Shown piece by piece: positions 13,660 to 43,670 of a stretch of DNA of 64,000 nucleotides. The translations under genes were made by a program, and so were the position numbers. The notes under the pieces are model-generated. The model searched no databases. It was given only the letters and a program-made list of their open reading frames with translations, and had not been told where the DNA came from. The stretch is from Edaphochlamys debaryana (lineage: Eukaryota; Chlorophyta; Chlorophyceae; Chlamydomonadales), in the NCBI GenBank assembly GCA_016858145.1, contig JAEHOE010000001.1:1302001-1366000 (forward strand). The letters are read 5' to 3'. Within the stretch, counting starts at the first letter, position 1. The number at the start of each line of letters is the position of its first letter.

Positions 13660-16600
13660 ATGGACCTCGCCAACATGGGCGCCAAGCCAGGACCGGCCAC
13701 TCTGCAAGGAGACGTGCTGCATGCCCTACGTGCGGCACGAGTGAGTGGAAGGGGGATGAGCGTTGCGGGATCACATAGTGGGGCCCGGTACCTCATTTCG
13801 CCCCCGGTATTCTTCCCCTCTGACAGGCCCTGTTCAAGGCCTTCAACTCAGGCTCGGGGCCTCGAGTCTGGATTGCGGCTGAGGCGGATGCGCTGAGCAC
13901 AGCCCTTCTGCGGCTGTGTGCTCCGCCTGCTGCCCGCAAGACCCTGGGCGACGTGCAGCTCCTCACCGTCTTCGACTACCTGCTCAAGCCCTTCGCCGCC
14001 CGCCTGCTCAGCCCCGCCCTCTTTGAGAAGCCTGGCTTGGCAGCCGCCGTCGAAAGCATCAAGTCCGGCGACGCCAATGGAGTCCGCGCCATCGCAGCCG
14101 TCATCAACGCCCAGCGCTCTATGGCGCAGGTGCTGTACTGGCTGCAACTCGAGGCCCGTACCGCAGCCTCGTTCGACCTGGTCATGAGCAAGACGCAAGA
14201 GCTGATCGCAACGCAGGCCTACTGCCCCTTCTTCAGCACCGAAGATGGCTTCAAAGCCGCCGAGAAGCACCTCGGGCAGCACGGCCCGCCGCCCAACCAC
14301 CCGCACCTCCACAAGATCCGCCGCCCCGAGGACTGCGCCACCCTTCCGCCCCTGCTGCCTCACCTGGTCCGCCTGCTGGACCCACCCTCCCTGATCCACG
14401 CCCTGGGACAGCCGCCGGCCCCCACTGCCGGCGCTGCCTCGGGCACCCCGCACTCCGCCGTCCGCAGCTCGCTGACGGCCTCCGCGACTGACGCCGTCGC
14501 GTGGCTGGCGGGCGTGCTGCTCAGGTGCACTGAGCCCAGCGTGCAGGCGGCCGTCGCCCCGGGCCTGGCCTCCGTCGACTGGCTGCCCGCCTGGCGGCTG
14601 TGGCTGGAGCCTCCGGCAGCCGACGGCGACAGCCAGGTCTGGCCGCTGATCCAGTACGCGCTGCAGGCGGCCGGACCGTCTGCCCTTGAGGAGCCCAACT
14701 CGACTGTCGGCACCGTCGCTGTGCCTGCGTTGTTGGCCTCGCTCCTCAAGGCCCTGGCCACAGCGCTTGAGCAGTGGGAGGCTGCTGAGGACACAGCTGG
14801 CGCCGCTGGCAGCGCGCCCGCCGGGGGCCAGGCCCGCCGCCTTCGCCACGTGACCTGGTGCCTGGTGGAGCGCCTCGCCCCTTTCCTCAGCACCACCTGC
14901 CCCGCCGCATCCGCTCTGGTCCTGGGCAGCGAGGTCCTCGCCAGCCCGACCATGCCGGCCGCACTCCAGGCCGCCGTGGCGGAGCACTACGCCAGCACCC
15001 TGTCCCTGGGGCCGCTCCCGCCGCGTGAGCTGTGGCCGTCCCTGCAGCAGCTGTGGCTGGCGCAGGGCCCGGGCTTGCACGAGGCTTGGGCCAGCAAGCT
15101 CCTCGCCCTGCTGCGTTCGAGCAGCGAGGCCAACGCCGCGGCATGCCGCCCACAGGCCTCGGAGCTAGCCCTGCTGCTGCTGCTGAGCTCGCTGCGACAG
15201 AGCCCCACGACCCTCGTGCGTCTGGTGGACCCGGCCACGCTGGCCTTCCTGGCCAAGCTCTGCGCTCAGCCCCTGCCCCTGCCTCCACAGCTGAAGCACC
15301 CGTCGCCATCACCCTTTGCACCCAAGCACACTTTACAGCGTAGAACGCGCCCAACGTCCAAACGAACGTCCGACGACAGAAGCACCCACCCCAGAAGCAC
15401 CCACCCCATGGGTGAGGCAGCGGGCGGCGAGGACGCCGCAGTGCTCTTCCAGCTCTCGGACCCCCTGCTGCAGCTGGCCAGCCGCGCCTATGTCGCCCAG
15501 AGTTGGCAGAGGAGCCTTGCGGTTCGCGGCAGCGCGCAGGCTGCAGCGGGCGCATTCGCCGCGGCTCTGCTGCAGCTGGCGGAGGCCGGGCCTGAGGCGG
15601 CTGGCGGCGGCGGGCTGCAGCTGATCCGCGCCCTGGATGCCCTCACCACCGGCCCCGGGGCCCTGCCGCTGTGCCAGGCCCTGATGGGCCAGGGCGAGCC
15701 AGGCGGCGCCGTCTCGGCGCTGACCCACATCGCCCTCGACCCATCCTGGCCGCACGAGCAGGCCGCCGCCGCCGCGCCGCTGCTCATGCGCCTGAGCGGC
15801 TCCGTCTTCCTGCGCAAGGGGCCTGACGGGGTGCGGCTGGTGCCGGTCACGGCGCAGCCAGAGCGCCAGCTCTACGCGGCGCCCGTCTGCGCCCTGCTGG
15901 GCTCAGAGCCGTCGCGGCAGCTCGTCTTGCAGGCCCCGTTCTCTCCCCTGGAGCTGGAGGCCTGGGCGGCAGCCGTGGACAGCAGCGACGCGGCCGCCCC
16001 CGGCCTGTGCGCAGCCTACGTGGGCTCTGTCGTGCAGGCCTGCTCGGGGCCGGCGGCTGGCGAGCCGAACGAGGCCATGCGCTCAGCCAGGGCGCACCTG
16101 GAGGCGCTGTCACGCCGCCTGAGCCAGCTTGACGCAGCGGACGACCACCGTCCGACGGCCAGCGGGACCCAGCAGCCGCCCTCGGCGCCTGAGGAGACCC
16201 TGCCGTGGCGCGCTCGGTACTCTGCGTGTCTGCCGGCCATGGTGAGACTGCTGGCCGCCACGGAGGACCGCGAGTTGGTTGCCTGGCTTGCAGCCTCCGC
16301 GGGAGCGCTGGCCGGGCTCAGCGCGCAGGACCGGGCCGCCCTGCATCGCGGCCTGGGCTTGAGCGGCGATGCCGACAGCGCCCAGAGCCCGGATGGCTCC
16401 CCCGCCGGCGGCGAGCCGGCCCCCGCCCCCGCCCCCGCCGGCAGCTTCATCTGCGTTGAGGTGGAGCAGCGGTGCACGCAGCGGCCGCCAGCGGTCCGCA
16501 GTGAGGACTTTGACGCGGCCGTGGAGGCGCTGCGGCAGCTGCTGGGCCGCATGTCCCGTACCGACGGTGCGGCTGTGGCCAGGGCCCCCGCCGGCCAGCC

Positions 16601-19600
16601 TGCTTTGGGCCTGGTGCTGACCGAGACCACGCAGCGCAACCTCGACACCATCCGGGCCGCGGTCGAGTCCGGCCGGCCGCTGCTGCTGAGCGGCGACACG
16701 GGCGTGGGCAAGACTGCCAGCGTGGCTCACGTGGCGGCGGAGCAGGGCCGCCGTCTGGTGCGCTTCAACCTCAGCGCCAAGGTGAGTAGTCTGGGCTGGG
16801 GTTGCGCCTAGCTAGCCTTAGCACTCAAAAGTGCTTGGGCCCATGATGATAGAGGCGTCCTTATGTGAGGAGTGACCCGAGGGTGTTGGCCATCTGCTCG
16901 TCCGACAGGTTACGGTCGAGGACCTGCTCGCACGGCTGGTGCTACGGCGGGACGCAGGCACCGGTCGGGAGGCGCTGGAGATGGAGCTGCAGCCCTTCGC
17001 GGCGGCCTTCCGGGACGGCCACTGGCTGCTGCTGGACGAGGCCAACCTGGCGCCCGACAACGTCCTGCAGGTGGGCTTCTGTGCCCCCATGCGGGCTTCC
17101 TGGATGCTGATGCTGAGTGCCCAGATGCCTCAACTTGCTGTCAGCTCTCCCTGCCCTGCACAGCTCAGCCTGGTTGTACTTGCTTGTGCCCCATGCAGGC
17201 CCTGCAGCACGCCTTGGACGTGGGCTCCCTGCAGCTGCGCAACCAGGGCTCCGCGCAGGAGGCATGCATCACCATCCGCCGCCACCCCGACTTCCGCCTC
17301 TTCGCAACCCAGAACCCGGACACGGGTAGGTACTAGCCAGCAAGAGGCTCAGCACTAAGAGATAAGATAAGGGGAATTTGGGATGCTGCCCCCACATCCA
17401 TTCTACCCGTCACTACGACTTGCTTGCAGGCCTCTTCAAGGACACGCGTGAGCGGCTGTCGGTGCCGCTGCTCAGCCGCTTCGAGTACGTGTGCTTTGAG
17501 GAGCAGACGCAGGCGGAGTGGCAGCAGGTGGGTCCAGACCAGGGGTTGGGAGGGCAGGCTACCTGCTCACTCCTTTTATTCATGCCGATGCGTGCCGATC
17601 GAGAAAGGTACACAAAGATTGTTTACCCCTTACCCCTGCTGACGTGCCGATCCTCCAGGTTGTCGAGGAGACTCTGCGCCGCAGCGGCGTGACAGCTCAG
17701 CTGGCTCGCGTGTGCGCGGCGGAGATGCTCCGCGTGCACAGCGCCATCCTCACCCAGCCGCAGGTGTGTCTTAGGGTTAGGGCTGCCGACCGTCCCAAAA
17801 GCCTGGCGGAACAACTGAGGTTGTCCTCGACAGGGTGCGGCACCCTGCGAAGTTGCCCTGCTTAGAAGCTGCAAGGGCTGTCAATGCAATGCCATTCATG
17901 CCCTGCGCAGGCTGCGACACCCTCTGCCCATATCACCATCCGTGAGCTGCTCAAGTGGACGTCCGCCCTGGCCAACCGCGTCAAGGGCACGGAGGGCGCC
18001 CTGACCGCTGGCCGGCCCTCGCAGCCGCTCCTTCAGGCCCTCAGCACCACTGCTTTCGTGGTGTACGGCGCCCGCCTCAGCAGCGCGGAGGCCCAGGACG
18101 CCCTGCTGCAGCTACTGCCCGACCCACTTCACGTGCGGAAGTGGCTGGCACACGAGCAGCCGAGGGACATGGCCGCCGAGCTGGAGGTCTTTGTCCGGAC
18201 ACTGGCCTCCGCCGTCAGTCCCTACAACCCGTCCTCGCCATCCACCGACGCCGCCATGAAGGCGGCAGCCGCGCAAGCCGCCAAGGAGACCCTGCTCGAG
18301 GCCGCTGCGGCCATGGGCGCTGGCGCAAAGGCCGCAGCCACCAAGGCGGCGCAACTCCTTGGGGCCCCCCAGGTCCAGGACGCCGCCCTCACCACCCACC
18401 GCGGTGTATGCGCTCTGCTCCGCCACCCCGACTTCCTGGCCCGCAATGGCGTTTACCGGGCTCCGGACCCGGAGCTGTGGCTGGAGTGGGCTCGGGCGGG
18501 CACCGCCGCCGCCATGGCCGCCGCCGCGCCCGGGCCAGGCGAGCCGGCAGCGTTGCCCCTGCTCACCGCCTTCTTCCAGGCCGGTCTGGAGCTTTACGCC
18601 GGCCAGCTGCGGGGCGGCGAGGCCCGCGAGGCCGTGCTCAACGTCTTCGAGGGTGCGCTCAAGGCTGCCGCTGGCAGCGAGGCCGGCGCATCCGACGATG
18701 CGGCTACCGCTGGCTCCTCCGCCGCTCTGTCCCTTCAGCCGCTGAGCCGGGAGCCGGGCCAGCAGCTGCCCTTCGCCGTCACGCCCCAAGTCCTCTCCGC
18801 CTGGACGCTGCTGCTGCCGGCGTTGACGGGCTCGGAGCCTGTCCTCCTGACGGGCGCGGGCGGCTGCGGCAAGTCGGCCTGCGTACGCGCTCTGCTGGAG
18901 CTCCTGGGGGCCACCCCGTCTCTGCACTATGCCCACATGACGCCAGGTGCGTGCACACGGTACAAGTAGATAACCTGCTTAGCCCTACTTGCCCTCCTTA
19001 CTTGGGCCCTGCTTGTGCCTAGACCACAGTTACAGGTACACTCGCCCCTCAAGCCTTACCACCCTTTGCCCGATGCGCAGAGTCCGAGTCCTCCGAGCTG
19101 GTGGGCCAGTACCTGCCCGCCGAGGACGGTGCCGCGGCCATTGTGTGGGTGGACGGACCCGTGACGGCCGCCTTCAAGAGTGGCGGCCCCGTGCTGGTGG
19201 ACAACCTCAACGCCGCTGAGGCCACGGTGCTTGAACGGCTCAACCCCCTGCTGGAGCGGGACCCCGTGTGGGTGCTGGCGGAGGAGGGCGACACGACCGC
19301 CACGCCCGTGCAGCCGGGCTTCCGCTTCTTCGCCACCCTCACCGAGCCCAGCACGCAGAGCGAGAAGCTGTCCCCGGCGCTGGCCAACCGCCTTTCCACC
19401 GTCCACCTGTTTGACTTGCTTGGGGCCAGCGAGGCCGTGTTCCGGCGGGAGGCGCTGCAGCTGGCTGCCGTCACCGGAGCAGAGGGCAGCGCTGCGGAGC
19501 TAGGCTCAGACCTGTGCGTGCTGCTGAGGAACCAGCTGCGAGACGGCAGGCCGCCGCTCACCCTCCGCGCGCTGGTGCGCCTCCTGGACTTGGCGCACCG

Positions 19601-22600
19601 GCTGTGCGTGTCCCGCGGCTTTGCCTACCCTGAGGCGCTGTGGGCAGCCTACGACGTCACCCTACGCGGGAGCCTGGGCGCCAGCGAGCCGGCAGTCACG
19701 CACGCGGTCCGACAGCTCCTGCGCCCCGCACGCCCCGACACGCCCAGCCCCCTCCTCAGCGACCTCCCGGAGCTGCGCTGCCACATCCTGCCGCCCTCGC
19801 GCCGCGGCACCGCGGCGGCGGTGTGGGCTTGCCTGCGCGCCGCCCGCTCTGTCCTCCTGGAGGGGCCCGCGGCCGTGGGCAAGACGTCTCTGGTGATGGA
19901 CCTGGCCCTCAGCACCGGCCGCCAAGTGTTCCGCATCAACAACTCGGAGAGCACCTCGCCCCAAGACTACCTAGGCACCTTCCTACCCGGCCCTTCAGGC
20001 GCCTGCGCCTTTCACTCCGGCCCGCTGCTTCAGGCCATGCAGCAAGGCGCCGTGCTGCTCGCTGACGAGCTCAACCTGGCCCGCCCCGCCGTGCTGGCGC
20101 TGCTCAACCCGCTGCTGGAGGGCATGGGGTGCATCCGCGTGCCGGGCACGGAGCGCGTCGTCCGCGCCGCGCCCGGCTTCTGCATCGTGGCGACGCAGAA
20201 CACGGCGCAGTACGTGGGCCGCTCGCCGCTGCCGGCCGCGCTGCGCAACCGCATGGTGGAGCTGCCCGTCCCCGACTTCGCCCCCGACGAGCTGCCCGAG
20301 ATCCTGTGCAAGCGCAGCGAGCGGCTGGCGGCGGCTGGCGCAAGGTGGGCAGCAAGCGGTTGGGTGACTTGGATATGGGCTATGGGAGCTATGATCTGAG
20401 CACAGCTACTGCTACCGCGGCTCCGTTGTCCTGCCCCTCGTCTGATTGATGCTGCTCAATCCTTGCTTTCTGCAGCGCGGGAACGCTCACGCCGGGTCAG
20501 GCGCAGCAGCTCTCCCACCTGTACTTCGCTATGCGCGGCGCCATCACCATGCGGCACCTCATCAAGATCCAGCGCCGCGCCGCGCGCTGCAGCGCGCCCT
20601 TCTCTCACGCAGCGGCAAGCCTTCTCCTCAGCCGTGTGGCGCCAGACTCGGACGCCGCTGCTGCTCTGATCGCCCAGCTCGCCAGCGTCCCAGGCTGGGA
20701 AGGCCTGCCCGATAGCATCCGCAGCGCGCAGCCCTCCGTTACTCAGCTCCCGGCGTCGGTGGTGATCAGTGACGGCCTCCTCACCCTCGAGCTGCCAGGG
20801 GCCGACTGCAGCCGCAGCAGGCACTGGGCGCAGGACAAGGGCCCGCCGGGCCGGTTCCTGCGCGCGCTGGTGGGGTTTGCCTTGGCCGCCGCCTGCGGAG
20901 AGCCAGTCCTGCTGTTCGGGCCCACGGGCTGCAAGACGGAAGTGGTCCGCACCTGGTGCGACATCATGGGCCGCCGTGAGGAGCTGCTGGTGGAGCACCT
21001 GACAACAGGTGGGGCCCGCCTTGGGTATCCACGTGGGGGCCGCCGCCCGTGCCCATGCCTGTCGTACTAAGTCCTTACGTCCCGTCCTGTTCCTGCAGAC
21101 ACGGATGGCTACAGCCTCGTCGGGCAGCTGACGCCCTTCTCCTGTGCAGAGCTACTCAAGGTGGGCTCAAAAGTTGCCTGAAGACCTTGCTTGCGAGTCT
21201 TGTCATGGCGTACCCTTGTGCAACAGCAGCATCTCCCTGCTTGCTGCTTCACAGGGCCTGCCTGCGGTCGTGTCCGCCGCCGCCTCCCGTCTGTCGTGCC
21301 TTCTGGCGGCCGCGGAGCTGCCGCCCAGCGCTCGGCAGGAGGCCCAGGTGGACCTGAGCCAGCTGCGGGGTGTGGTGGATACGCAGCTGCGGGGCGCCGT
21401 GCAGCAGTGCGAGCAGCAGCTGGCCGAGTGGCTAGCCAGGCAGGCGCCCACGGACTGGAATGACGACAGCACCTCAGTCGACCCTGAGGCGCTGCTCTCG
21501 GCCCCGGACATGCCCAGCACGGAGCCCACCGCCGCACCGCGAGAGCAGCCCTCGCAGCTCAGCGCTGCGGCCGTGGCCGCGGCCGTTGAGCAGGAGTTGG
21601 CCGCAGAGGAGCCAGTCCTGGTGGAGCAGGCCGCAGCGTTTGACCGGCAGGCCGCCCAGCCGCCTCACAGGCGGCTCAGCAGCAACGGTAGCTGGCAGTA
21701 CGCGTACGGCAGTGACGATGACGGCGGCAGCAGCGAGGGCCTCGACATGGATGCGCTACCCGACGACACAGACCTCATCAACATTGCCGCCAGGCAACCA
21801 GCCAGCACCGCCCGGGAGGAAGTGCCAACCACGGCCCCGCCGCCTGCCTCCTCCATCCTCAGCCGCACCACCAGCGGCGCGGACGCAGACACTGTGCTGG
21901 GGGCGCCGCTTTCGCCACCGCTCGCGTCGGGCGGCGACTGGGCCTGGGAGCTGGTGCAGATGGCCGACCTGGCCGCAGGGACGGCGCGAGGGCCCTTCCT
22001 GCTGCCCGAGGCTCTGGTCAGCGCTGTCACTGCCTGCCGGGGCCTGCTGGAGCGCCTCTGCTCGGCACTGCCCGACCCAGAGGCCCGCACCATGGCCAAG
22101 CGCATCGCGGACTCATGGGCCGCCGTCACCGAGGCCGTCAAGGCGGCCAACGCTGCGGCTGCGGCACGCGTGCCCGGCGGTGCCGCCGCGGCGTTCTCTC
22201 GCCCACTGTTCGTGTTCGTGGACGGACCCATCACCACCGCCGCCAAGCTGGGCCGGCCCGTGCTGCTGGAGGACTACGACCAGCCCAGCCAGGCCGTCAC
22301 GGAGCGGCTCAACCCGCTGCTGGAGACGGAGCGGAGTTTCACGGTCAGCGAGGACCTCACCGCCGGCGCCGCAGGCGTGGGCGCTCGTGAGGTGCCCGTG
22401 CCCGAAGGAACGCAGGTCTGTGCGACCGTCCACACCGTCTCTGCCAGCGGCGGCTCAGCGCTGGCGCGCATCAGCCCCGCCACGCGCTCCCGCTTCACCG
22501 AAGTCCTGGCCGAGCCGGCCTGGTGTCCCACCGCTTCCTGGCGTCCGTGGCCTCGCCGCTCGCTGCCCGCGACGCGTCCGCCGCGGTGGCGCTGCTGTCT

Positions 22601-25600
22601 GATCTCCAGACCGCCGCCGCCTGCCTGCCCCAGATCGCTGTGACCCGGGGCGCGGACGTGCGCACCTTGATGTCCTGGGCGGAGCTGGCGGCGAAACTGT
22701 ACGGCACCCCACGTGCTGCGCAGCCGGGCAGCGGCGCCGCTGCACAGAGCCTCAGCCTGGACCTGGCCTGGCTGTGGGCGGCGCGCTTCACCGTCCTGGC
22801 CCGCCTGCCCCTGGAGCAAGTTGAGGAGGTGCTACAGGCGTGGTGGGCTGCCAAGAAGGTACCGCACGTGCTGCCCACCGCCTACGGTGACATCCTGCAG
22901 CCCCCGCCCGAGGACCCGGACGCCTGCCCCGTCTACCTCGTCCCCGACCCCACCCGCCCCGGAGCCCACCGGCTGCAGCTGGCCTACACGGGCCTCAGCG
23001 TGCCGCTGCCCCCGCCCTCGGCTGGCGTTTGGCCTCCCTCGAGCCAGGGGCAGCTGGAGGCTCGCCTGCAGTTGACGCCCACTGCATCTCTGCAGCTCAA
23101 CCTCGCCAACGTGTTTGCGGCGCTGCTGGCCGACCGACCGCTGCTCCTGGAGGGGCCGCCGGGCATCGGCAAGACCGCCATCGTGCAGCGGGTGGGTTGC
23201 GTCTTCTATAATAGGCTTTGTGCACACATTCCGTGCCCGGGTCTTACTTTTTTGCGTTTTGGGTGCTGCTGGACCCTGTAAACCTGGCTATCAGCACGTC
23301 GCCCCAACATTCCATCGTTCCCTTTTCCACCAGGTTGCCGCCATGCTGGGCATCCCCTGCGAGCGCATCAACCTGAGCGGCACCACCACCACGCAGCAGC
23401 TGCTCGGCGGAGTGGTGCCTCGCATGCAGGTAGGCTCTACAGCAGGTCCTGTGATCGTACGTCGGAACGGCCTCGCTGACCTGAGCTTGCCTTGGCCCAC
23501 TGCAGGAGGGTATGCGAGTCTTCACCTGGCAGGACGGCGCTCTGCTGCGGGCCCTGCGCCAGGGCCACTGGGTGCTGCTGGACGAGCTCAACCTGGCGCC
23601 GCAGGAGGTGCTGGACGCGCTGGCACCCCTGCTTGACCGGTGAGGAACAGTGGCTTCCTGGTTCCCTGCAGCACGTTCTTTTGGCTGAGCAGCAACTACA
23701 ACAACCACTGAGCAATCACGTAAATTGCCGAACAGGAGCCCGGCTGGCGGGTGCGGCTGTTTCGTGCTGCCCTCCACGGGCGAGAGGGTACCGCTGCCCG
23801 GCAGCGTCCGCATCTTCGCAACGCAGAACCCCGCCTCTGCTGGTGGAGGCCGCAGCAAGCTGCCCCGCTCCATCGCCAGCCTCTTCAGCCACGTGACGCT
23901 GGCGGCGCCCTCCAAGCGCGAGGTGGCCAACATTGTGCTGTCGGTTTTCGGCCAGGCCATGGACCAGGGCTTCGTCAAGTTTGAGCACGTCAGCGCGGTG
24001 CTCAAGTTTCATTGGGAGGCCGTGGAGGCGCTGGTGGACCGCAAGCTTGCCCGCGCTGGCGGCGTTCAGCCCTTCAACCTGCGGGACCTGATCAAGGTGC
24101 GACTGTTTGTGCGCTGGGCAGCCCGCATGTACCAAAGCCCGCAGCAGCCCTGTCCGTTGACCTGGAGCCCTTACCGCTGATACCGTCCTTGCCCCTCATC
24201 CCACGTGCAGGTTCGGGACGTGCTGGTCAGGATCATGCGCGACCAGCAGATGCACTACGGCCTGCAGCTGGGCCGATCCCAGCCCGCAGACCCATCGCGG
24301 CCCCTGCCACCGGGCGCCCTAGAGGAGCCCAGCGCTGAGGCGGTCAAGACCCTGGCCCTGCGTAAGGTCCTGGAGGTGGTCTACGTCCTGGCCTTCCCCG
24401 ACGCTGAGGACCAGGCGGCCGTGCGCCGCATGCTCGACACGCACGTCGGGGCTGTAGCAGTCAGCGGCGCTGGTGTGGACGAGGACGGCCCTACCCTGGA
24501 CCTCAGCGTGCCGGGGCTGGCCCGCATCGGAAGCATCTACATGAGCCGGGGTGAGCTGGGTACTCATGCTCGTCCGCGCTGGTCTGCTTGGGAGGCTGGT
24601 CTGTTGGGGCAAGACGGCTTTATGCTGACCCGTTTTCGGCTTACAACACTCGCAGGCTCGGAAGAGGGCGTGGTGGCTCCGCTTGTCCCCACTCCTGCCA
24701 CGCGCCGTGACCTGGAGACCCTGGCCGCCGCAAGCTGCAGCGGCCGCACGGTGTGCCTCAAGGGACCAACGGCCAGCGCCAAGTCCGCCCTCGTGATGGA
24801 GCTTGCACGCCTGGCAGGCCGCCGCATGGTCATCATCCCCATGACCGCTGAATCAGGTGCGCGTCTTGAGATGGTATCTGGGCAAGTGTTGGAGGCGTCA
24901 AGCTGAAGGCACCGTGCCTTTCATGGGCCCTTTCCGCTGCCGCAGACGCCTCCGAGGTGGTCGGCTCCTGGCTCCCTCTGCGCAGCGCAGCGGCCCAGCG
25001 CGACGGCGGCCTCCAGGCCAAGACCCTGGCGCTGGCAGCCGACCTCCTGCGCTTGGCCTTGCCGCACCTGCTGCCGGCGCTGCGGCACTGGACGGCGCCT
25101 GCGGACGCCCCCTCCGGCACTGCCGCTCACCTGCAGCCGTCCAGCATCATTTCGCCTCTGGCCGACCTGCTGGCCGCGCCAGAGGTCGCTCAGCTCGCAT
25201 GTGGGCCCCCTTATGCGGAGACCGCTCCGGCAGGGCTCCGGGCCATCCTCCGCTCGTGCAGCCGGCTCATGGGCGCTGCTAGCGCCGCCAGCTCCTACGG
25301 CTACGTGCGCCTGCCGCCTGCGGTGTGGGCCCAGCTGCTGCGCCTGAAGGCTCGGCTGCACAGCTGCTGCGTCCTCCTGCGCAGCGTGGAGCAACACCTC
25401 AGCGCGGAACCCGAGGTGCGCTCACGGAGTCATGGGCATTCAGCAGCGCAGCAGGGTTCCATGACCACTGCCCCCTTGAACCGGCCCCGGCTTGCTTCAC
25501 CTTCGCAGGCTGAGCCCAGCCAGGAGCGAGACGGCCTGGCATTCGAGTGGGTCAACTCCTCCCTCGTGGAAGCGGCCAAGCGCGGCGACTGGGTACGTCT

Positions 25601-31600: not shown

Positions 31601-34600
31601 CTGAGTCCCAACCGAGCCCGGCGCAGAGCCCGGTTACGCTCACAGCCCTGGTGGCAACAGCTGAGGCGCACCACGGCCCGTCCTCTGCAGTTGCCACATC
31701 TCTCCGCACCCTCCGCACCTTCTTGCTGCGCCTGGTTCTCGCCATGGCCCGTCACGCCACCCTCGCGAGCCCCAACGACGGCACGCTGGCCAGCTCCTGT
31801 AACACCCTCCAGCGCATGCTGCGGCAGGACAGCGCCTTCACAGAGGACGCCGTGGCCAGGACGCTGTTGACAGCTGACAAGCTCGCCCTGCAGGCCTACC
31901 TGGAGCGCAGCACGGCCGAGCTGCCCAGCATGCTGTGCGTGCTCCGCAACGCCGGCGTGGCCACAGCACATGGCTACGACCCCAACCCTCTGGCGCTCGT
32001 GCACGACGCTGAGGCGCAGGCGGCACAGCTGGGTGATGGCTTCCTGGACGCGTCCTTCGTGTCGGCGCGCCTGCAGCAACTCCTGACCGCCCTGTCGGCC
32101 AAGGCGCTGGCGGGAGCGTGCAGCGCTGAGGCCGTTGAGCGCCTCACAGCCGCTGTGGAGGCCTTTTCCGCCATTGCCAGCGTTGACGTGGCCAGTGGCG
32201 GCGCGGCGTTCCTTGAGTTGGTGCTGGGGAGCAGCGCCGGTGAGGGCGCGTCCCCGTCCGCGGACAAGCTGCAGCAGCTGAGCGCCAGGCTCCAGAGCCT
32301 CGCGTCCTATTTGCAGGCGGCTGCCGCCGGCTCGGCGGCCGGCTCCGAGGCTGCAACGCATGCCGCAGGCTCGCTTGGCAGTCCCCTGTCAGGCGCTGTG
32401 GAGCGACTGCAGCTGGCGCTGATGCGGTCCCTGCTCGCCACTGGCATTGACCTGGTGTCCAGTAGCTTCACCCAGGACGCCGACCGCAGCATCACAGGTG
32501 AGGGAGGGGTGCCGGCGTTGCTGCATACGGCTCTGCCATGTTCTGCAACCTCTGTAGCTGCATACGACGGGGGCCAACATGGTCTGGTTGCTGTACCCTG
32601 CCCTCAGGCCACCTGGAGGACCTGGAGGACCCGGCGCTGCAGCTGTGGGAGCCCTGCGACGAAAGCGACGAGGAGGACGACGCTGGCGGCACGGAGGACG
32701 GAGAGGACGAGGAGGAGGAGGAGGAGGAGGAGGAAGACGAAGATTCAGCAAGCTCCGCCGCGGCCGCCGGTCTGCAGCTGCGCCTGGAAGCCATCCAGCT
32801 GGGTGCCTGCCGTTACCTGCCGGCGTTGCGGCGGGTGCTGCAGCGGCGCTTCTACGCTGCCCGGCACTGGACCGAGGGTGCTGCGCTGGACCCTGACTCT
32901 GCGCCTGAGGCGCCGCTTCCCACAGCCGACGCCGAGTGCCTGGAGCGGGCCGAGGTGCTGCAGGCCCTGGTCTCCGGAGGCCTCGTTGGCGCCCGAGAGC
33001 TGCTCCACTCGCTCGCCCGCTACTCCCCGGACCTGCTGGACGTTGCGAGCGTGGTCGGGGAGTACGCAAGGCTGTGCGCCGACGGCCTGAAGCTCCTGCA
33101 GACCCCACTGGAGGACCTGGAGCCCTGTGCCGACGGCCCTGACGACGGCCCTGACGACGGCGCTGCCTTCCTGGCCAGGCTGGCCGCCCTGGAGGGCTGG
33201 GCGTGTGAGCGCTTGGGGCAAGTGCTGTGGGGCCGGCTGGCTCAGACCAATGCCGTCGATGGCACTCGGGTGGTGGAGGAGCTTCAGGGCCTCGTCGGAC
33301 AGTGCGCCGAGCTTCAACAGGTGCGTCTTCAACCCTGCCGTTGCGGTGTAAACGTCCAACTCCCGCTAGGACCTTAGTTCAAACCCTGACTGAGGTGCCC
33401 TCTGCCATGCACGCAGGCCTGGGAGGTGTCCGCCAGTGCACTGGTCGCCACACGCCACCAGCAGCGCCTTGCTATGCACACAGAAGCCGAGCGCAGGGCC
33501 CAGCAGGAGCTGCTCGAGTACCGACAGCAGCAGCTCAGCGCAGTCCAGGGCGTGGCGGGCTTGCTCTCGAGGGCAGTGGCCGCAGATGACGAGGCCACCG
33601 CTGCCCTTGGGCAGGTGTGCCGCTGGGGACTGCAGCAGCATGACCAGCCGCAGGCTGTGGAGCCGCGCACAGCGAGGCTCGTCGGCCTGATCGACCGGCT
33701 GCACAAAGCCCAGGCTGCTGCTGCGGGCGTGTGGGACGGCATCCCCGAAGGCAAGCGGCAGGCAGGCATTGCAGCCTCCTCGGCCCCGCAACCCCTGGCC
33801 CCTGCGCTTGGCCCACTGAGAGCACACGCCGTGCGCGGACAGCTCCTCGAGAAGCTCCCAGCCATCATTTCGCTCAGCGCTCCGACTGGTCACACACTCC
33901 CGCATCGTGTGTCAGCTATCGATGTAGCCGTGGAGGGCGGCGTCCTGGAGCCCAACCCGCGCTGGTCACCCGCCGGCACCAAAGTGGACAGCACGCGTAC
34001 AGCGGCAATCTTTCCGACATCCCGGCTCTGGTACCAGGGCCAGAGTGTCGCATCCATTCGCGTCTCAAACCGGTCAGCGTTCAGAGTCGCATTCACCCTC
34101 CTGGGCAAGCCACACCCAACACAGGAGGAGCCAAGGGAAGGCGGGCTATTAGGTGGCCTAAGACGTGGCTGCCGAGCCCTTCTGGATACCTTCAGAGGCG
34201 GTGGCGAGCTGGTGCCAATACATTCGTACACCCTTCAGTACGACAGCCTTCTCAAGGTCACGGCTGGTGAACCTTGGGGCCTGCCGCTCCAGTTGACCGC
34301 TCAGGGCTACGTCTGGGTTCCGGTCCGCACCCCCACTGCCCCTCACGAGGGGCCAGGGGTTGCCGCCAGCGCAGCGGGGACGGATGATTCTGGCGATGTG
34401 GCTAGCGCCACCATCAGCGCCGGAGCCGCCGCCAGTGACGCGGATGCGGTGGATGCAGCTCTCCGCCACCTCGAGGGGCTGGTGGGGTCACTGGAGTCAG
34501 ACCTGGCGCGCTTGGGACGCATCCTGCAGGAGCAGCCACCTCGCATGTCCTCGCGCGGGCGGGACCTGGCGTCCGCCAGGCATGCCGACGAGCTGGCCTG

Positions 34601-37600
34601 GCGCAACAGCCGCCCCGCCCTCCTGCTCCGCGCGCTGGATGCCGCGCTGCAGGACTGCGCTGCCAGCGTGAGGAGCCTCACAGCCGCCTGCGTTGCTCAG
34701 CTGGACGGCGTGGTGCGAGAGCAGGAGCGGTGGCGCTGCGCCAAGGAGCTTATCAGCCTGCTGAGCGATGCTGTGCTCACCCAGGCGCCCGGCGAGGTCC
34801 GACGGCTGGTGCAGGAGGCAAAGGCCATGGCGCCGCTGGAGCCCAGCAGCTCACTGCAGCAGCCCCTGGACCTCTGCTGGTCAAGCGACATGGCGTCACT
34901 GTACCGCAAGGCCTCGTCTGAACTTGCGCCGGCTGCCGCAGGCGTCAGCTCCAGCGTGCTACCCCTCGTACACCGCATGCTGGGCCTGACGCTGTGCGGC
35001 GCAGCCGCTGGCGCCGACAGGCCCGAATGTGCGGTAGAGGGCCAAGCGCTGCTGCTCGAGGGCGAGGGGACGCTGGAGAGGCTGGCGGGCAGCCTCCGCT
35101 GCCCTCACAAGGCGCAGCTCAAGGAGGTGGGCTCGGGAGCAGTGGGGGCATGAAGGGCGGGTGGCGCAAGTATCTTGTTGGTGCCGGGCCTCTCAGGACG
35201 CCTGGATGCTCCTCCCTTGCACAGGTGGCCTACGCTCTGTCTGTAGCCAAGGCAATCGTAAACCGCAAGACCGAGCTCTTTGGAAGCCGCCGACGCGCCT
35301 ACAGGCAGCTCCGCTCGCTTCCGCCATTGGAGGAGGATGACGCGCTGCTGGCCCTCCGTGCCGCCAGCCGCAGCTCCGGGGCCTCGGCCACGGCGGTGCT
35401 GCTGGCCTCCCCCACAGGCGGATCGGTCTTCTTCGCCGGCAGAGGCTCCGCCTCCCTGTCCTTCGGCGATGTGCTGCTGGGCTCGTCGCCTCGCGTGTGC
35501 ACGCTGGCGGTGGTCAACGAGACTAACCGGGCCATCAAGGTAGGGCGATGGCCGATGGGGAGCGCCTAGGCAGTGACATCGCCCAAGGATGGCATGCTCA
35601 CTCTCGCAAAAGGCTTTCGTGACATCTATCCTTACCCTGCTATCCCTACCCTTTGCGTTGCAGCTTGACATCCGCCGGCTGGCCATTGACGACACAGCCG
35701 GCTCCAGCGGGACGGCACGGCCGCAGCCCCTCATCCGTACAGAGCCTGACCAAGCCCTGTACGTGCCCGCCAAGCAGCAGCGCCCCATCAAGTTCGTCCT
35801 GGACCCCGCGGCCCAGGAGGCCGCTGCAGGGGCCTGCAACGCCGACTTCCTGCTCACCAGCCCACTCGTGTGCCGGCCCCTGGAGCTCAGCTGCGGGGCC
35901 CGGGTGCAGCAGCTCGCCCTGCAGCTGGAGCCCGCTCAGGCGCTGGACTTCGGCCGCATCCCCACCCGCACCAGCCTGGACCGAACCGTCAAGATCACGA
36001 ACCCCACTGGCGTGGCCCTACGGCTCAAGGCGGCTTTAAGCCCAGCTCCAGGCGCCAACCGCGCCGACGCCACTGCCGCTCGCGGCCCGCAGCTGCGTCT
36101 CGCCAACGACGTACTCACCCTGCAGCCCTACGGCACGGAGACGCTGGAGTTGCAGCTGCAGTCAGGGGATCTGGACGGCCAGTCCCTAGCCTCCCAGCAG
36201 CTGTGCCTCATGGTCAACTCACGCAGCAACACCTTCGTCCTACCCATCAGCGGTACCATCGTCACGCCCTGCCTCAGCGCGGTGCTGCTGCGCGGTGTTG
36301 AGGGGAGCCCGGCGGTGCCGATCCGGGCTGACGCCGTGGTGCACGGCCCGCTGCTGCAGCCCGGGGAGCGCTGGTGCCCACGCCTGGTACTCTCCAATGG
36401 CGGCACTGTGCCCGTGGTCTGCGAGCTGAGGCCCAGCCGCCCGAACAGCTGCCCGGTGGCGTGGTGCCAGGGGCCGGGCCTGCTCAACCCCGGTGACGGC
36501 AAGGAGCTTGACCTGTCCCTCATTGACCCCACGGAGCTTCACCAGTCCAGCCTTTTCCTCACCCAGCGGGCGGCGTGCGAGCTTCACGTGACCGGGCTGC
36601 TGCCAATCCCCTTCACGGTGCAGTGGGAGGTGGCTCGTGCTGAGCTGACCGTGCACAGGTCGCAGCTCCCACTGCGCTTCCGCCTCGACACGGCCGAACG
36701 CACAAGGATGGAGGCTGCCGGGGCGCGCTACAACAGTGATGGCACCTTCTTGGGCCTCGCCGCTGCGGTGGAGGTCGCCAACGTCGGGCGTGTACCCCTG
36801 GAGCTGAGAGGCCTGCTGGCCAACGAGCCCGCGGAGGTGCAGTGCGCCAAGCCACCTCTCCCTCTGCAGCTGGGCCCAGGCGACACGCAAAGCCTGCAGC
36901 TGCTGCTCACGCCTGCGGCGGTGGCGCGCTACGCGGACAGCCTGCACCCAAGTGGCAGCACCTTTGACGTCAGCCTCTGCACCTCCTGCATCGTGAAGCC
37001 GTTGCTCAGCGTCCCCTGCAGGCTGGACCTTCAGGGACCGCGCCTGGTGCTGGAAGCTCCCTCCCTGGTCCTCGGCCCTATGGACCCTGGGGAGGGCAAG
37101 AGCGCCCGCCTGGTGCTCACCAACGTGGGCACAGCGGACGCGGAGGTGGTCGTGATGGTCCAGTCTGCGGGCCTGCCGCAGTCCATCTTGCTCTGGGACC
37201 AGGGCGACCTCGCCGCAGCGGGCATGCAGGAGCCCACAACCCTGTCTCCAGGGCAGAGCATGGGCTTCCGGCTACAGCTCAATGTGGCTTCGGAGACAGC
37301 GCTCGGCCGCTACGAGGCTGCCTTCCAGGTGAGGATTCTATCCACCTACCCTACCTATGATTCTTTCGGCAAGCAAACTCACGCAAGCTGGGTGCCTTCT
37401 TGTTTACTGTTAAGGGCAGCACGGGAGAGCCTTCTTGAGGGCTTGAGCTCGTGGGCTGTGCCGAGGTGCTGCGCCTGCCACCTGCTGTCATGCCGCGTAC
37501 TGGCCTTAGCCCTAACATCGTCCTATCACTGCAGGTCCGGAGCCTGAACGAGCTGGACCTGAACACTGGCGCTCGGGGCAGGTGCGCGGTGGCAGCAGCG

Positions 37601-40600
37601 CAGCACCGGCAGACAGCTCCAACCCACGGACTACTGTACTCACCACCTGTGTTGCTTGCGTGCAGGACGCTCACCCTGCCCGTCAGCATCATCGTGGGAC
37701 CCGTGGCCGAGCCTGTAGCTGACCCCGCATCGGAGCCCGTTCAGGAGCCGGCGGCCGGTGCAAGTGCAGCTGCAGACACCGTGGCGCCGGCGGCGGAGTC
37801 GGGCCCAGGCGAGGGGAACGCTTCTGACGCCTTCGCCGCAGACGCCGCGCTTGGTGTGACGGCGGTGGAGCGAGCAGGGGAGGGCCCCCTGTCGGAGAGC
37901 AGCCATGAGCCTGATGGCGACGAGAGCCGCGGCACGGATAGCGAGGACGACAGCGGGCACAGCAGCCAGGAGGAGAGCGAGGAGGAGGACGAGCAGGGCA
38001 GCGAGCCGAGTAGCGAGGAGCGGGCGCTGCTTGAGGGCCTGGAGGAGATGAGGGCTGACGTGGAGGAGGCACTGCCGGAGCTGGAGGCCAAAATTATGCC
38101 CGCACTCAAGTCCCCCATACCGCTACCGTCCCTCACGGAGTGCACGTGGGACCTGCTTTGCGTGTTCGACACCCTCCTCTGCGCCTTCCACGCCGCAGCG
38201 CAGCTGGCGCAGAGGCGCAGCGGCGCCGTCCGGGCCCACGCGCGTTGGCTGGTGGACGGCATGGCCCGGGCAGCGGCGCTTGCCCCGGCGCTGCGGGTGC
38301 TGTCGGGCGCGGCCCTAGACGCTGCGGTCAGCTCCGTCCTGGAGCAGCGGGAGGCCGAGCTGCGCCGCTGCCTGGGGCTGCTGCTGCCCCGCCTGCCGCT
38401 GCAGCTTGCGGCCTGGTGCCGTGACCTGGGCATCAAGCCCGTGGCTGAGGGCTTGGGCGCCGGGCCGGAGGACTTTGAGACCGGCCCGCCCGGCGCCAAC
38501 GCCCCGCCGGGCACCCGGCGTTCGGACTACTTCGCAGCCCGGGGCGACCTCGAGCTGATGCGAGGGCTGCAGGGCGGCCCCGCGGCGCCTGCTGACGCTC
38601 GGCCCGGCGCCGCGAGCGCTGCTGACCTGTTTGGCCAGGTGCTGGAGCTGGAGGAGCGGGTCGCGGACCGGACGGGAGCGGCGCGTGCGGTCCGTCAGAC
38701 CCAGGTGAGCGCGTTGCATAATCCTCCGCAAGTCAGTCGGTCAGCTTTTTGGGTATGCACCACGGCCGGGCCCTTCTCTCAGTCATCCGCTGACGAATCT
38801 TGCTTTGCCGCTGCTTGTGCTGCTGCTGCTCTTTCGCAATTGCCCTTCCGCAGGTTCTGGATGAGGAGATTCTGTTCGAGGAGTTCGCTGAGGCGGGAGC
38901 AGGCGGCGGCTCCGGCTCCGAGCTGCGCACCGGTGCCGTGCTGAGCGGGCTCATGCGCCGCGCTGACGCCGACCGCGCGGCAACCAGCCCCTGGGCAGCT
39001 ATGCCCGGCCGCCGGAGGCCCGGCGGCCAGCCCGGCCCTGGCGGACGCATGCTAGTCGCAGGCAACCCCATGGCCGCGCCCAGCGTCTCCTTCGAGGTAC
39101 GCGGCTGGGATGTCTACCTAGCGTACTGTTCTTCAACGAGCTCCGCTTAGGTAGAGGTGGTCGAGCCGTTCTGAAGTGGGCGTGCCCCTGCACTTTGCTG
39201 CACAGGCCGGCGGACCCACCCCCGAGGACGCCCAGCTGCAGGGTGCAGCCGCCGCGGTGCGGCTGAGCCCGCAGGTGCGAGAGGAGCATCTGCGCAACTG
39301 CAACTTGGTCGATCTGTACGGCAAGGCCACCGCAGTACGGCGCCAGGAGCTACGCCCCGAGGAGCTGGCAGCGGGCGCACGGGCGCCTGACCTGTCGCGC
39401 TTTGATGCCGCGGGCCTGGGGGGCCGGCCGCTTCCGTACCAACTGCTGGTCGAGTCGCCCACGGTGGTACAGGCAGTGGACATGGTCTCCCAGGTACGCA
39501 TGGAAAGCCGGGGCCACTCGACTGGATGCAGTCCTCTGCCAGGCTTGGCCTTTCCTGTCGTCGCCTTCACGCTGCCACCCGTCCCTGCCCCTGCAGGCGC
39601 TGCGCCTGCACCTGCAGCGGCTGTACGAGAGCACTGGGCCCTGCGCCGCTCCGCCCAGCTTCGAGTGGTGTCTGCTGGTGGACAACAGCGGCAGCATGGC
39701 GGCGCAGGCCAAGTCCCACGGCGCCAAGCTGGCGCTGGCGGTGCTGATGGAGGTGCTGCGCCGCCTCGAGTGCCCCTTCGCCGTCGCCAAGTTCGGGCGC
39801 AGGCAGCAGGTGCGCAGCAGGGGAGGTGAAGCCCACGGTTACCGAGTGATGTCCTGGCATCTGTGTGCCTTATCTCAAGCTCTTCACGTTGCCGCCCTGC
39901 CCTCCCCCTCTTGTGTCCCCCAGCTGCTCAAGGGCCTGGCCGACCCGTTCGACGCGGCCGTGGGGCAGCTGGTGCTCGAGTCCTTCACCTACGACGAGGG
40001 CACCTATCCTGCTACCGCCTGCGACTTCGCCTGCCGCGAGGTCTTCGGCCAGCCGCTGCCCGCCGAGCGCAAGGGCCTCACGCGGCGCACGGTGCTCATG
40101 ATCGTGGACGGACTGACGCTGGAGCAGGACGCCGAGGACTACCGCACAGCGCTGCGGGCGGGCACGGAGCAGGCGGTGGACCTGCTGGTGCTCAACATCA
40201 AGGCAAGCGCGGCGGGAGCAACGGTTGGCAGGACTTGAGCATCCAGGAAAGATGCCGTGCAGCTCCACTTGTGCAAACTGCCATTCCCCTTGCGCCTTAT
40301 TTTCTCACAAGTGCTGATGCTTGTTGATACCCTCGCTTGCCCACAGGACCAGCACCAAGACCCGCTCATGCCGACCGTCGAGCGCCTGCTGCGAGACATC
40401 ACCGTGCGCGGGCCCCAGGGCCACGAGGGCTACGAGATTCTTGCCGCTGAGGCCGCCTCCAGCCAGCTTGCGCCCCGCGTGGCGCAGCTCATGGCCCGGC
40501 AGTTCGTGCGCCTGGTGGCCGGCGTTCCTGCCACTGACGCGGCAGCGCCGCAGCAGCGCGTGCAGGCAGCGGGGCAGGCGCTGGGCGCAGGCGGCCTGGC

Positions 40601-43600
40601 GGGGCTCGTTGGCCCCGCACTTGACGAGTGGGAGGGCCCGAGCGGAGCTGCCGGAGTCAGCGTCACCCGCTTTGAGCGCATCAGCAAGCACGCGGGCAAG
40701 ATGACGCGTCAAAGCGTGACCGACGCTGGCCTCGTGCTGCCGGTCCAGCTCTACGCCTGCAGCCCCATGCGCGCCCCCATCCCCAACCTGAGCCGGGCGG
40801 TGGCCGCTGCCGGCGGCCCCGGCGCCCTTGCCACGGCCTTTGAGGCCGCGGGCGGGCAGCGCCTGCCTGAGCTCCTGGCGAACCTGGCCCAGACCGTGGT
40901 GCCGCAGAGGCTGGCGGCGGTGCGTGCCCGTCACCCGGCTGACGTCCGAGCCGCCGAGGACGAGTGGAACGCCGCGACGGCGCGGCTTGCTCCGCTGGTG
41001 TCACGCCTGGGCGAGGTTCTGTCGGGGGACGTGCTGCCGCCCAACAAGCTCAGCCGCACCGGGCTGCGCTTCGCGGCTCCAGCCTGCACATGGGCGGCCT
41101 GGTCCGCGCCGTGTCCACCAAGTTCAACGACCGCCGCATCTTCGCGCAGCGCTGCGTGGGCTCGCAGCGCCAGTACGCCGTCGCCATCGCGCTGGACTGC
41201 TCGCTCAGCATGGAGGGACAGGCGGCGCTGTGCGCTCTGGACGCGCTGGTGGCCCTAGTGGGCGCCCTCACGCAGCAGGGCGTCCAGGACTTCACGCTGC
41301 TCACCTTCGGCTCCTCCGTGCGCCTGGTCAAGCCCGCTTCCGAGCCCTGGGACGGCGCCGCCGCGCTGGCGCTGCTGTCGCAGCTGCGCCGTCACGCCGC
41401 CGACGCCGCCAGCCACGACGCGGCGGCCGTGGACGCGGCGGCGGCGCTGCTGGCGGCGCAGGGCTCCTGGCGCACGCAGCGGCGGCTGTTCGTGCTGACG
41501 GACGGGCTGGGCAGCACGGGGCTGCGCCTGGCGGCGGCGCTGCAGCGGGCCGAGGAGGCGGGGGTGCAGGTGGTGGGGGTGGCGCTGGGGCTGGAGCGCA
41601 GCCACGTGCCGCACTGCTACGGCCGCTGGGTGCACGCCGCGCTGCCGTCCGAGCTGCCGGACGCTCTGCAGGCGCTGTACGGCGCTGCGGATGAGGGCGC
41701 TGTGGACGAGGAGGCGGCGCGCTCTGCGGCTGAGCAGGCCGCCGAGGCGTGGGCCGAGTGCGGTGCGCTGCTGGCCTCGGGCCAGGGCGACGCGGAGCAG
41801 GTCCTGCGCAACCAGGAGCGCATCTTCGGCTCCATCTTGGGCCGCCTTGGTGAGCAGTCCTTGCTCTACTCGGCCTTCCTTGCCGCTTTCTGCATACCAT
41901 AGCTTAGCATCGCACCATGCCACACAGGCCTTGCCCTTGGCGCATTGTCGGTCAAGCACTCCTACGTTTGTACCCCCCAGGCGACGCCAAGGACCTGCAG
42001 CTGCAGCTGACGGCCCCCGGCAGTATGGCCCTGGACGTGGCCTTCGTGCTGGACCTCACGGGCAGCATGACGGCCTGGCTGGAGGTAGGCAGGAGGAGAG
42101 CTGTACTGGGGCTGCCACTAGGGCTGCTTCGGCCCATGCGGTGCGGTGCGCTTGTGCCTAGCCCGCTTGCTCTCCCACTGCCCTCTACGTATGTGCCCAC
42201 TGTCCGCTCGCTCCCCTTCTCCCAAACTTCCACAGGTGATCAAGGCCAACATCCGGGCCGTCGCTACCAAGATCGCGCCGCGCATCCGTGAGGAGTACCC
42301 CGATCTGGACATCAAGATCCGCTTCGCGCTGCTGGGCTACCGGGATGTGGGCGACAGCCCGCAATTCGAGAAGCAGGACTTCGTCGAGGACCCGGCTGTG
42401 CTGGAGGCACGGGTGGGTCATGACTCAGAGGGTGGGGTTCCCCAACAGACGGCCAGTGCTCATCAAACACCACATGAAGAGACTGCACCGTAAGTCCTCT
42501 CAAGCTTCCTCCCTCGCCCTTCCCCCTCGGCCGCTGTCCCCAGTTGAGGCGCATGCGGGCCTACGGCGGCGGCGACGGCCCGGAGGATGTGGCCTCAGCG
42601 CTGGCTCAAGCCGCAGACCTGGGCTGGGCCGCCAAGGCACGCTTCGTGGTGCTGCTTGCGGACGCCCCAGCGCACGGCTTCAGCGACAATGCCGCCCAGG
42701 ACCGCTACCCCAGGGGCATCTCCGGCGCTCCCTCCCTGCCGGAGGCCGTCCGGAAGCTGGCGAGCAGAGAGATTGAGCTGATGCTGTGCAAGGTAGGCGC
42801 TCAGGAGCTGGCACGGCAGATGTTGCTGCAGGGAAACACTTCTCTCACCGCTACAGTGCACTCTGACATACAGTAGGCTAGGTAGGGGCTGACCCCGTGG
42901 CTCCTCCCGCTGCTGTTGCCGCCGCCCAGGTCCGCAACCGCGTGCTGGACACCATGGAGGGAGCCATGCGGGAGGCCTACGACGACCCCGCCGCCGCTGC
43001 GCTGCGCTCGGTGCAGCTGTTCGACGACTCCTGCCTGCCCGCCACCCGCTTCCACCTCGTCTTCTGCCTGGACGCCAGCAGCAGCATGCAGGAGGGCAGC
43101 AAGTGGGCCGACCTCATGGCCGCCGTCCAGGCGCTCCTCGACCGCCGCCGCAACGACCAGGGCCTGGAGGACCTCGTTTCCGTCATCACCTTCAACAGCT
43201 CGGCGCGCTTCCACGCCCGGCTGGCCCCCATCACTTCCGTCGCCGCCGATGTGCTGTACACGGGAGGCGGCACGGAGTTTGCGCCCCCGCTGCGGTACGC
43301 GGAGTGCGTCTTGGCCCAGCAGCCGGCTGACTGCACGCCGCTGCTGCTCTTCATGTCGGACGGCGAGAACCAGGACGGCGATACGGCCCTGCGCATCATG
43401 GACCGCATCGTGCAGCGATACGGCAGCGTTCACAAGCTCGCGGTACACACCATCGGCTTCCAGGCGGGCTCAGGCGAGCCCATGCTGAGGGAGCTGGCAG
43501 CGCGGGCGGGCGGCGCGGGCCACTACCACTCGTGCCACACCGGGGTGGACCTGGCCTCTGCGTTCGTGCGCATCGCTGCCGGCTGCGGGGCGGTTGATGG

Positions 43601-43670
43601 GCTCATTTCTCGCTTCGCCGAGATCCTGTCGGAGCAGGTGGCGCTCAAGGTGGTGCACGACTACCTGTGA
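13660..43670 (+). CDS. giant midasin-like protein: six AAA+ modules, ASH-like Ig repeats, four vWA domains
   Basis: One gene of 38 exons reconstructed from phase-consistent splice sites, about 8,500 codons (roughly 0.9 MDa). Start: ATG at 13660 (MDLANMGAKPG), donor at 13741, next exon 13827-16781. Stop: TGA at 43668. Order by approximate residue: N-terminal helical region 1-950; AAA1-6 950-3,550; helical linker with coiled coil 3,550-6,200; acidic tract near 5,420; ASH-like repeats 6,260-6,870; second acidic tract near 6,980; vWA1-4 7,420-8,470. The AAA_5-type modules, long linker, acidic tract and C-terminal MIDAS match midasin (Rea1/MDN1), the dynein-related ATPase that strips factors from pre-60S ribosomes, but midasin has about 5,000 residues and one MIDAS. 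I infer force-driven remodelling of a partner held by the vWA domains; the substrate is unknown. Two single-base frame breaks (near 22516 and 41074) interrupt an otherwise intact reading. One intron is GC-AG. Confidence 0.88.
13827..16600 (+). other. giant protein: N-terminal helical region
   Basis: About 920 residues, Leu/Ala-rich and mostly helical in character, lie before the first AAA+ module, comparable in place to the midasin N-terminal domain but longer. Near 15290-15410 the sequence briefly turns basic and Ser/Thr/Pro-rich, unlike its surroundings. A 15-base unit is repeated in tandem at 15378-15407 and adds the repeated peptide STHPR/STHPM. This stretch could be an in-frame unspliced intron or a recent insertion. 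Confidence 0.6.
16600..26810 (+). other. giant protein: hexa-AAA+ (dynein-related) block
   Basis: Six P-loops are visible: GDTGVGKT (16692), GAGGCGKS (about 18852), GPAAVGKT (about 19864), GPTGCKTE (about 20920), GPPGIGKT (about 23155) and GPTASAKS (about 24765). Matching Walker B regions are LLLDEAN (17030), VLVDNLN (19194), VLLADELN (20052), VLLEDYDQ (22260), VLLDELN (23574) and VLLDNID (25903). Sensor-1 ATQN is present in modules 1, 3 and 5 only. Module 4 carries about 380 residues, and module 6 about 210, between P-loop and Walker B, resembling the large helix-2 inserts of midasin. The block is long enough for one intramolecular six-module ring, as in midasin and dynein. Confidence 0.88.
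26944..33320 (+). other. giant protein: helical linker, coiled coil and acidic tract
   Basis: About 1,950 residues of Leu/Ala/Gln-rich helical sequence follow the ring. A heptad-like stretch rich in Glu, Gln, Arg and Leu at 30770-31150 (EERRGLEAQ-type, QLRDVETQLL, QLDALLQHQ) is a good coiled-coil candidate. At 32640-32755 a nearly pure Asp/Glu run (ten or more consecutive acidic codons near 32705) matches in position the Asp/Glu-rich region of midasin. The linker in midasin acts as the mechanical lever; the same role here is inferred. Confidence 0.65.
35380..37328 (+). other. giant protein: ASH/Hydin-like Ig repeats
   Basis: At least three beta-type repeats follow the ASPM-SPD2-Hydin pattern of F/L-G-x-V/I, about 10 residues, then a V-x-N turn: LSFGDVLLGSSPRVCTLAVVN (near 35455), LDFGRIPTRTSLDRTVKITN (near 35944) and LVLGPMDPGEGKSARLVLTN (near 37068). 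Similar strands lie between them (near 36370 and 36760), suggesting about four to five repeats. Such repeats usually bind partners in cilia, centrosomes or large scaffolds. An alternative is a related MSP/Ig-like fold. Confidence 0.6.
39597..43600 (+). other. giant protein: four consecutive vWA domains
   Basis: Each domain has a DxSxS or related metal-binding (MIDAS) start: LLVDNSGSM (39670), IALDCSLSM (41185), FVLDLTGSM (42043) and FCLDASSSM (43063). Later acidic MIDAS residues are visible as MIVDG, LTDG, LLADAP and MSDGEN. The third domain has a GGGDGPEDVA block and ADAPAHG, a signature of the vWA type joined to alpha-kinases in proteins such as Dictyostelium VwkA, but no alpha-kinase follows. 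The fourth is a classic vWA with TGGGTEF supplying the MIDAS threonine and ends near the C-terminus. Between domains 1 and 2 lie about 280 residues of helical sequence containing the second frame break. Confidence 0.85.
40203..40346 (+). other. GC-AG intron in the giant gene
   Basis: The exon ending in LLVLNIK (40202) is followed by GCAAGC, and the next exon (DQHQDPLMP) begins after CCCACAG at 40346. Phase is 0 on both sides. AAG|GCAAG is the normal form of the minor GC-AG donor, and no GT donor keeps the frame here. Confidence 0.75.

Follow-up and report, generated by a model that had tools for sequence, protein, structure and literature searches.

A giant midasin-related gene present in three copies in the green alga Edaphochlamys debaryana, and its product as a likely ATP-driven puller

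Midasin (Rea1, MDN1) is a motor that strips factors off new ribosomes, including Rsa4 and Ytm1 from pre-60S particles, and is usually regarded as a single-copy ribosome factor. It combines six AAA_5 modules, a long linker, an acidic stretch and a C-terminal von Willebrand factor A (vWA) domain of the metal ion-dependent adhesion site (MIDAS) type within a single chain. In Rea1, AAA2-5 are functional, whereas AAA1 and AAA6 lack Walker B (PMC6286127); the H2-alpha insert in AAA2 of the yeast protein is auto-inhibitory, as it fills the pore, lowers ATPase activity 10-15 fold and hinders MIDAS docking (PMC6286127, PMC11603028), and the Rea1 MIDAS loop bears a nuclear signal (PMC6624252). The same plan is found in the product of a giant gene from Edaphochlamys debaryana, which lies in a stretch of 64,000 nucleotides (assembly GCA_016858145.1, contig JAEHOE010000001.1, C1:1302001-1366000) referred to below as the window. 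Judged from sequence, this gene is one of three copies of a midasin-related giant gene, and its protein is likely an ATP-driven puller that grips proteins via its vWA domains. Because its ring and MIDAS-like domains are homologous to those of midasin, the protein is a diverged midasin paralogue with extra vWA domains and an immunoglobulin (Ig)-like block, and not an unrelated design.

The genome (141.9 Mb, 502 contigs) holds the giant gene in three collinear copies matched by blastn over the whole gene length, namely C1 (the window), C2 and C20. Genome searches with the AAA_5 profile (23 of 124 candidates scored) and the VWA profile (all nine scored) both point to these loci, with all six VWA matches falling two per locus; TGA codons within two of the AAA_5 matches lie outside exons. 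The protein models of the three copies comprise 8618 (window), 9073 and 8739 amino acids (aa) and share 59-61% mutual identity. The ratio of nonsynonymous to synonymous substitution rates (dN/dS) between copies is below 1 in 19 of 19 segments (range 0.14-0.74), which marks the AAA, linker, Ig and vWA4 blocks as coding sequence; it is lowest in AAA1-3 and raised in the late linker and the Ig block. Three-way identity peaks in vWA2 (78%), AAA3 (74%) and vWA1 (67%), and is lowest in the acidic tract (18%).

The comparative, paralogue-guided model of the window copy runs from an ATG at 13660 to a TGA at 43668-43670. The 38 phase-consistent exons of the original prediction held in part: the model does have 38 exons, and 28 of its 37 introns are shared, in alignment column as well as phase, with one or both of the other copies, but the frame is kept only by splicing round two deletions, discussed below. 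The exact exon count is unproven, because the model 'intron' 15302-15397 sits in an open frame and is not shared with the other copies, and a probable intron at 39810-39923, within vWA1, is retained as exon. Between AAA1 and AAA2, C20 and C2 have an intron which the window (18675-18750) seems to lack or to read in frame. Pfam was run on protein pieces typed from the gene model and returned AAA_5 (five stretches of one piece and two of the following one), the midasin lid AAA_lid_7 twice, ASH, HYDIN-type Ig and VWA. Pfam and motifs together bear out the predicted six AAA_5-type modules in one chain. The four predicted vWA domains were also recovered, three through Pfam VWA matches and vWA1, which scores below the Pfam cut-offs, through its D-x-S-x-S, T and D positions, present in all three copies.

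A canonical midasin gene was found elsewhere in the same genome, at C7, with six Walker A motifs, a long acidic region and a MIDAS domain whose match to solved midasin has E 4.2e-58 (the gene model extends into the neighbouring gene). The giant gene is thus not the genome's one-to-one MDN1 orthologue, and its separateness from MDN1, as first proposed, stands. Downstream of the C7 midasin, the following gene or genes carry two near-repeated C-terminal stretches, presumably RAP-domain-like. What is not supported is the notion that the giant protein resembles midasin in plan only. Among solved structures, the window AAA1-3 piece matches midasin at E 7.2e-100, the next kind being NorQ at E 2.8e-15, and a ring profile built from the three copies can be aligned with the ring of C7 across 2091 columns (hhalign score 641, E 1.8e-76). 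In-register scores exceed shifted ones for AAA3-5 (411 v 196), AAA4-5 (263 v 186) and AAA5-6 (313 v 226 and 225). The vWA2 domain matches the solved midasin MIDAS at E 4.9e-7 as a single C20 sequence and at 7.7e-9 as a profile, and for vWA1 midasin ranks first among named families (E 5.8e-4; integrin 0.007). Another match of vWA2 is 8ql1, a chain deposited as NDE1, which we take to carry a MIDAS because the C7 MIDAS matches it at 1.2e-39. The stretch corresponding to the MIDAS loop is retained in the giant proteins but less basic than in midasins: of 37 positions, lysine and arginine make up 13 in C7, 12 and 11 in two solved midasins, 7, 7 and 6 in the three giant copies and 9 in the database relative P0003.

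Several results weigh against this interpretation. Window AAA1-3 scores better against C7 AAA3-5 (344) than against C7 AAA1-3 (298), AAA1-2 has no register support (217 against 99 off register), AAA2-3 is near even (247 v 236), and summed single-module bits favour the like-with-like register only by a narrow margin (411 v 404 v 382 for the three registers). Window vWA2 gave no blastp match to the C7 MIDAS at E 10 and an hhalign probability of 56%. Profile comparisons detected no homology between the linker and the midasin linker, although as a control the C7 linker exon likewise shows no midasin among the best 60 of its 122 matches. Both structure models of the protein were unusably poor (predicted local distance difference test scores 39 and 35), and the window copy carries two frame breaks, of 22 nt and 1 nt.

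The ring of the giant protein is distinguished by its ATP sites, of which 1, 3 and 5 look intact and 2, 4 and 6 degenerate by their motifs. Window, C20 and C2 are concordant in this respect: AAA1, 3 and 5 retain Walker A and D-E, AAA2 has D-N or D-G at Walker B, AAA4 has no Walker A and E-D at Walker B, and AAA6 has SAKS and D-N. The AAA1 Walker A is absent from the C20 gene model, yet the open frame there reads GDTGVGKT. Taking the S/N-R-F motif to be the arginine (Arg) finger, sites 1, 3 and 5 also retain the fingers that would serve them; finger loss is restricted to AAA5 in three of three copies and adjoins the broken AAA4 site that this finger would serve. In AAA2, Walker A and Walker B are about 68 aa apart in the window and 63-75 aa apart in nine database rows, versus 188 in C7, which leaves no room for an H2-alpha insert.

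Database relatives carry the AAA2 signature as well. A search with the AAA2-3 exon gave at least 47 matches among 8000 scored, and in a 25-row tree, 19 rows including the three copies split from the remaining six with support 100/100; of these six, only C7 is a true AAA2-3, the others looking like AAA3-4 or AAA4-5 by motifs. The AAA2 Walker-B Glu is absent in 16 of 16 readable rows of the 19-row clade. The signature is shared by environmental sequences and one record named Didymodactylos carnosus (a rotifer; possible contamination). These relatives are fragments, informative on the ring and not on the vWA array. The vWA2 search returned one relative, P0003, 50% identical (among 7998 scored), the full-length protein found none among 630 scored candidates, and viral contigs gave one pattern match and no relative.

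Outside the ring and the vWA array, the acidic tracts of the original prediction are present both in the linker-like region and at 37931-38027, and its ASH-like Ig repeats are only partly upheld. Two Ig families, the only ones to score, exceed their Pfam cut-offs, but barely so: ASH reaches 27.6 bits (cut-off 27) and HYDIN-type Ig 27.4 bits (cut-off 25.5). With a single-exon query ASH drops to 18.8 bits (cut-off 27), and in C20 HYDIN-Ig reaches 24.6 (cut-off 25.5). The Ig-block profile matched none of the solved chains at E 10. The Ig assignment is weak, and a putative Ig anchor is the weakest part of the mechanism proposed below.

Feature coordinates in the window (position 1 is its first letter)
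Feature	Position	Strand	Basis
Whole gene, window copy	13660..43670	+	38-exon model, 8618 aa; blastn matches to C20 and C2, collinear and running up to 43670
N-terminal region (~930 aa)	13660..16628	+	Three-way conservation 35%; no hhalign match to the C7 N-terminus
AAA1: apparently intact site (Walker A GDTGVGKT, Walker B LLDEAN, Arg finger SRF)	16629..18196	+	Motifs, Pfam
AAA2: Walker A GAGGCGKS; Walker B LVDNLN, which lacks Glu; ~68 aa Walker A to B	18781..19770	+	Motifs
AAA3: apparently intact site (Walker A GPAAVGKT, Walker B ADELN); highest conservation among the modules	19800..20695	+	Motifs
AAA4: no Walker A (GPTGCKTE in its place), Walker B LLEDYD; long insert within the module; retains Arg finger SRF	20846..22676	+	Motifs
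22-nt deletion vs both other copies, frame-breaking, about 22515	22503..22520	+	blastn alignments
AAA5: intact Walker A (GPPGIGKT) and Walker B (LLDELN); no Arg finger (SIASLFSH)	23087..24430	+	Motifs
AAA6: Walker A GPTASAKS; Walker B LLDNID, which lacks Glu; retains Arg finger NRV	24685..26555	+	Pfam, motifs
Long linker-like region, acidic run about 32700-32745	27127..35126	+	Exons open and in frame in each of the three copies (dN/dS 0.38-0.63)
Weakly scoring Ig-like block of ASH / HYDIN-VesB-CFA65 type	35426..37691	+	Pfam
Second acidic tract	37931..38027	+	Sequence
vWA1 (DNSGSM ... EGT ... VDG), similar to midasin MIDAS; contains probable intron 39810-39923	39597..40223	+	
vWA2 (DCSLSM ... 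TDG), stretch homologous to midasin MIDAS loop	40944..41690	+	
1-nt deletion vs both other copies, frame-breaking, about 41058	41054..41062	+	Comparison with other copies
vWA3 (DLTGSM), VWA_4-like	41981..42981	+	Pfam
vWA4 (DASSSM ... GGGT ... SDG)	42982..43667	+	Pfam

These features could be combined in a motor in which only the odd sites (1, 3 and 5) would hydrolyse ATP, the even sites being fixed or structural. Since AAA2 has no H2-alpha plug, a MIDAS-like vWA domain would be free to dock with no need for a prior release. A client held by vWA2 or vWA1 would then be pulled by the linker, and the remaining vWA domains and the Ig block may serve as additional grips or as an anchor. The MIDAS loop is less basic, and in Rea1 that loop carries the nuclear signal, which makes a non-ribosomal role the likelier one and somewhat favours a non-nuclear client. 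A broader and more speculative possibility, which we consider rather unlikely, is a second class of midasin-type motor across several eukaryote groups, with neither the AAA2 plug nor even-site catalysis: an odd-site, three-stroke ring whose vWA array and Ig anchor dismantle or assemble cytoplasmic or ciliary complexes, not ribosomes.

Among other explanations, there is a considerable chance, although we lean against it, that the window copy is a decaying pseudogene and that the family's working member resides on C20. The reading frame of the window copy is not unbroken, contrary to the original prediction, since 22 nt are missing near 22515, just past the AAA4 Arg finger, and 1 nt near 41058, just ahead of vWA2; the model stays in frame solely via two unshared 'introns', 22503-22609 and 40998-41053. 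In C2, an in-frame TAG precedes vWA2 and the Ig exon switches frame. No break was found in those C20 exons that could be resolved; several exons of this copy differ by extra introns. Constraint between the copies is still strong, and assembly errors typically yield single-base gaps too; the breaks may be assembly errors or real decay. Pseudogene status of the window copy is in any case compatible with an ATP-driven puller as the product of the family.

It is unlikely that the protein is a second midasin that still serves ribosome assembly by acting on different clients, whether pre-ribosomal or organelle-linked. The homologous ring and MIDAS-like vWA and the kept MIDAS loop stretch would fit such a role, but the genome already has its canonical midasin at C7, the giant protein has lost the AAA2 insert and its even ATP sites, the MIDAS loop is less basic, and nothing in the C7 model corresponds to the extra vWA and Ig-like regions. 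More doubtful still is a mainly structural scaffold, in which the ring would serve as a regulatory switch and partners would be held, without force, by the vWA and Ig-like regions; half of the ATP sites are degenerate and vWA domains are multiple, as a scaffold would have it, yet at sites 1, 3 and 5 both Walker motifs and the Arg fingers that would serve them are preserved under constraint. A division into neighbouring AAA and vWA genes is highly improbable, and this candidate was rejected on the collinear copies of the same order and the middle exons in frame in all three, the largest intron of the window model being only 206 bp, so that no intergenic gap separates AAA from vWA.

If the protein is indeed a midasin-derived puller, a paralogue without the AAA2 plug and with ATP sites alternately intact and degenerate would offer a natural experiment on force generation in such rings, and would predict an uncharacterised client-removal pathway. 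The three copies, the AAA2 signature and the C7 control make these ideas directly testable in the alga.

Other observations concern the wider genome and the window outside the gene. The genome's top AAA_5 match, at C116:347500-347910 (105 bits), lies outside the midasin-type genes, and at C62, 472395-486956, four equal-scoring AAA_5 fragments on one strand with a spacing of about 4.81 kb resemble a tandemly repeated gene or unit. In the window, an open frame at 61812-63464 (+) has a Laa1/Sip1/HEATR5 HEAT-repeat match of 27.4 bits (cut-off 27).

No published description of this architecture appeared in the titles or abstract openings of open-licence papers on midasin paralogues or midasin-like proteins, and known systems resemble it in part. 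Proteins of the HYDIN, CFAP65 and ASH-domain families have in common with it one or two Ig-like stretches marginally above the Pfam cut-off, and these families are not known to contain AAA or vWA domains. Dynein heavy chains also unite an AAA ring and a linker in a single chain; none was among the 12 solved-structure matches of the window AAA1-3 piece at E 0.001, and a vWA partner is lacking in dynein (PMC7159879). The bacterial MoxR and NorQ-CobS systems pair an H2-insert AAA protein with a vWA partner, and NorQ, CbbQ and CobS are the next structural matches of window AAA1-3 after midasin; unlike the giant protein, they are separate subunits in homohexamers and not a single chain. Midasin is closest, matching in sequence in the ring and in vWA1-2, but the giant protein has four vWA domains where midasin has one, an Ig-like block in addition, and an AAA2 without the long insert and without the Walker-B Glu. 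Its motif-intact sites are 1, 3 and 5, whereas the functional sites of Rea1 are 2-5 (PMC6286127).

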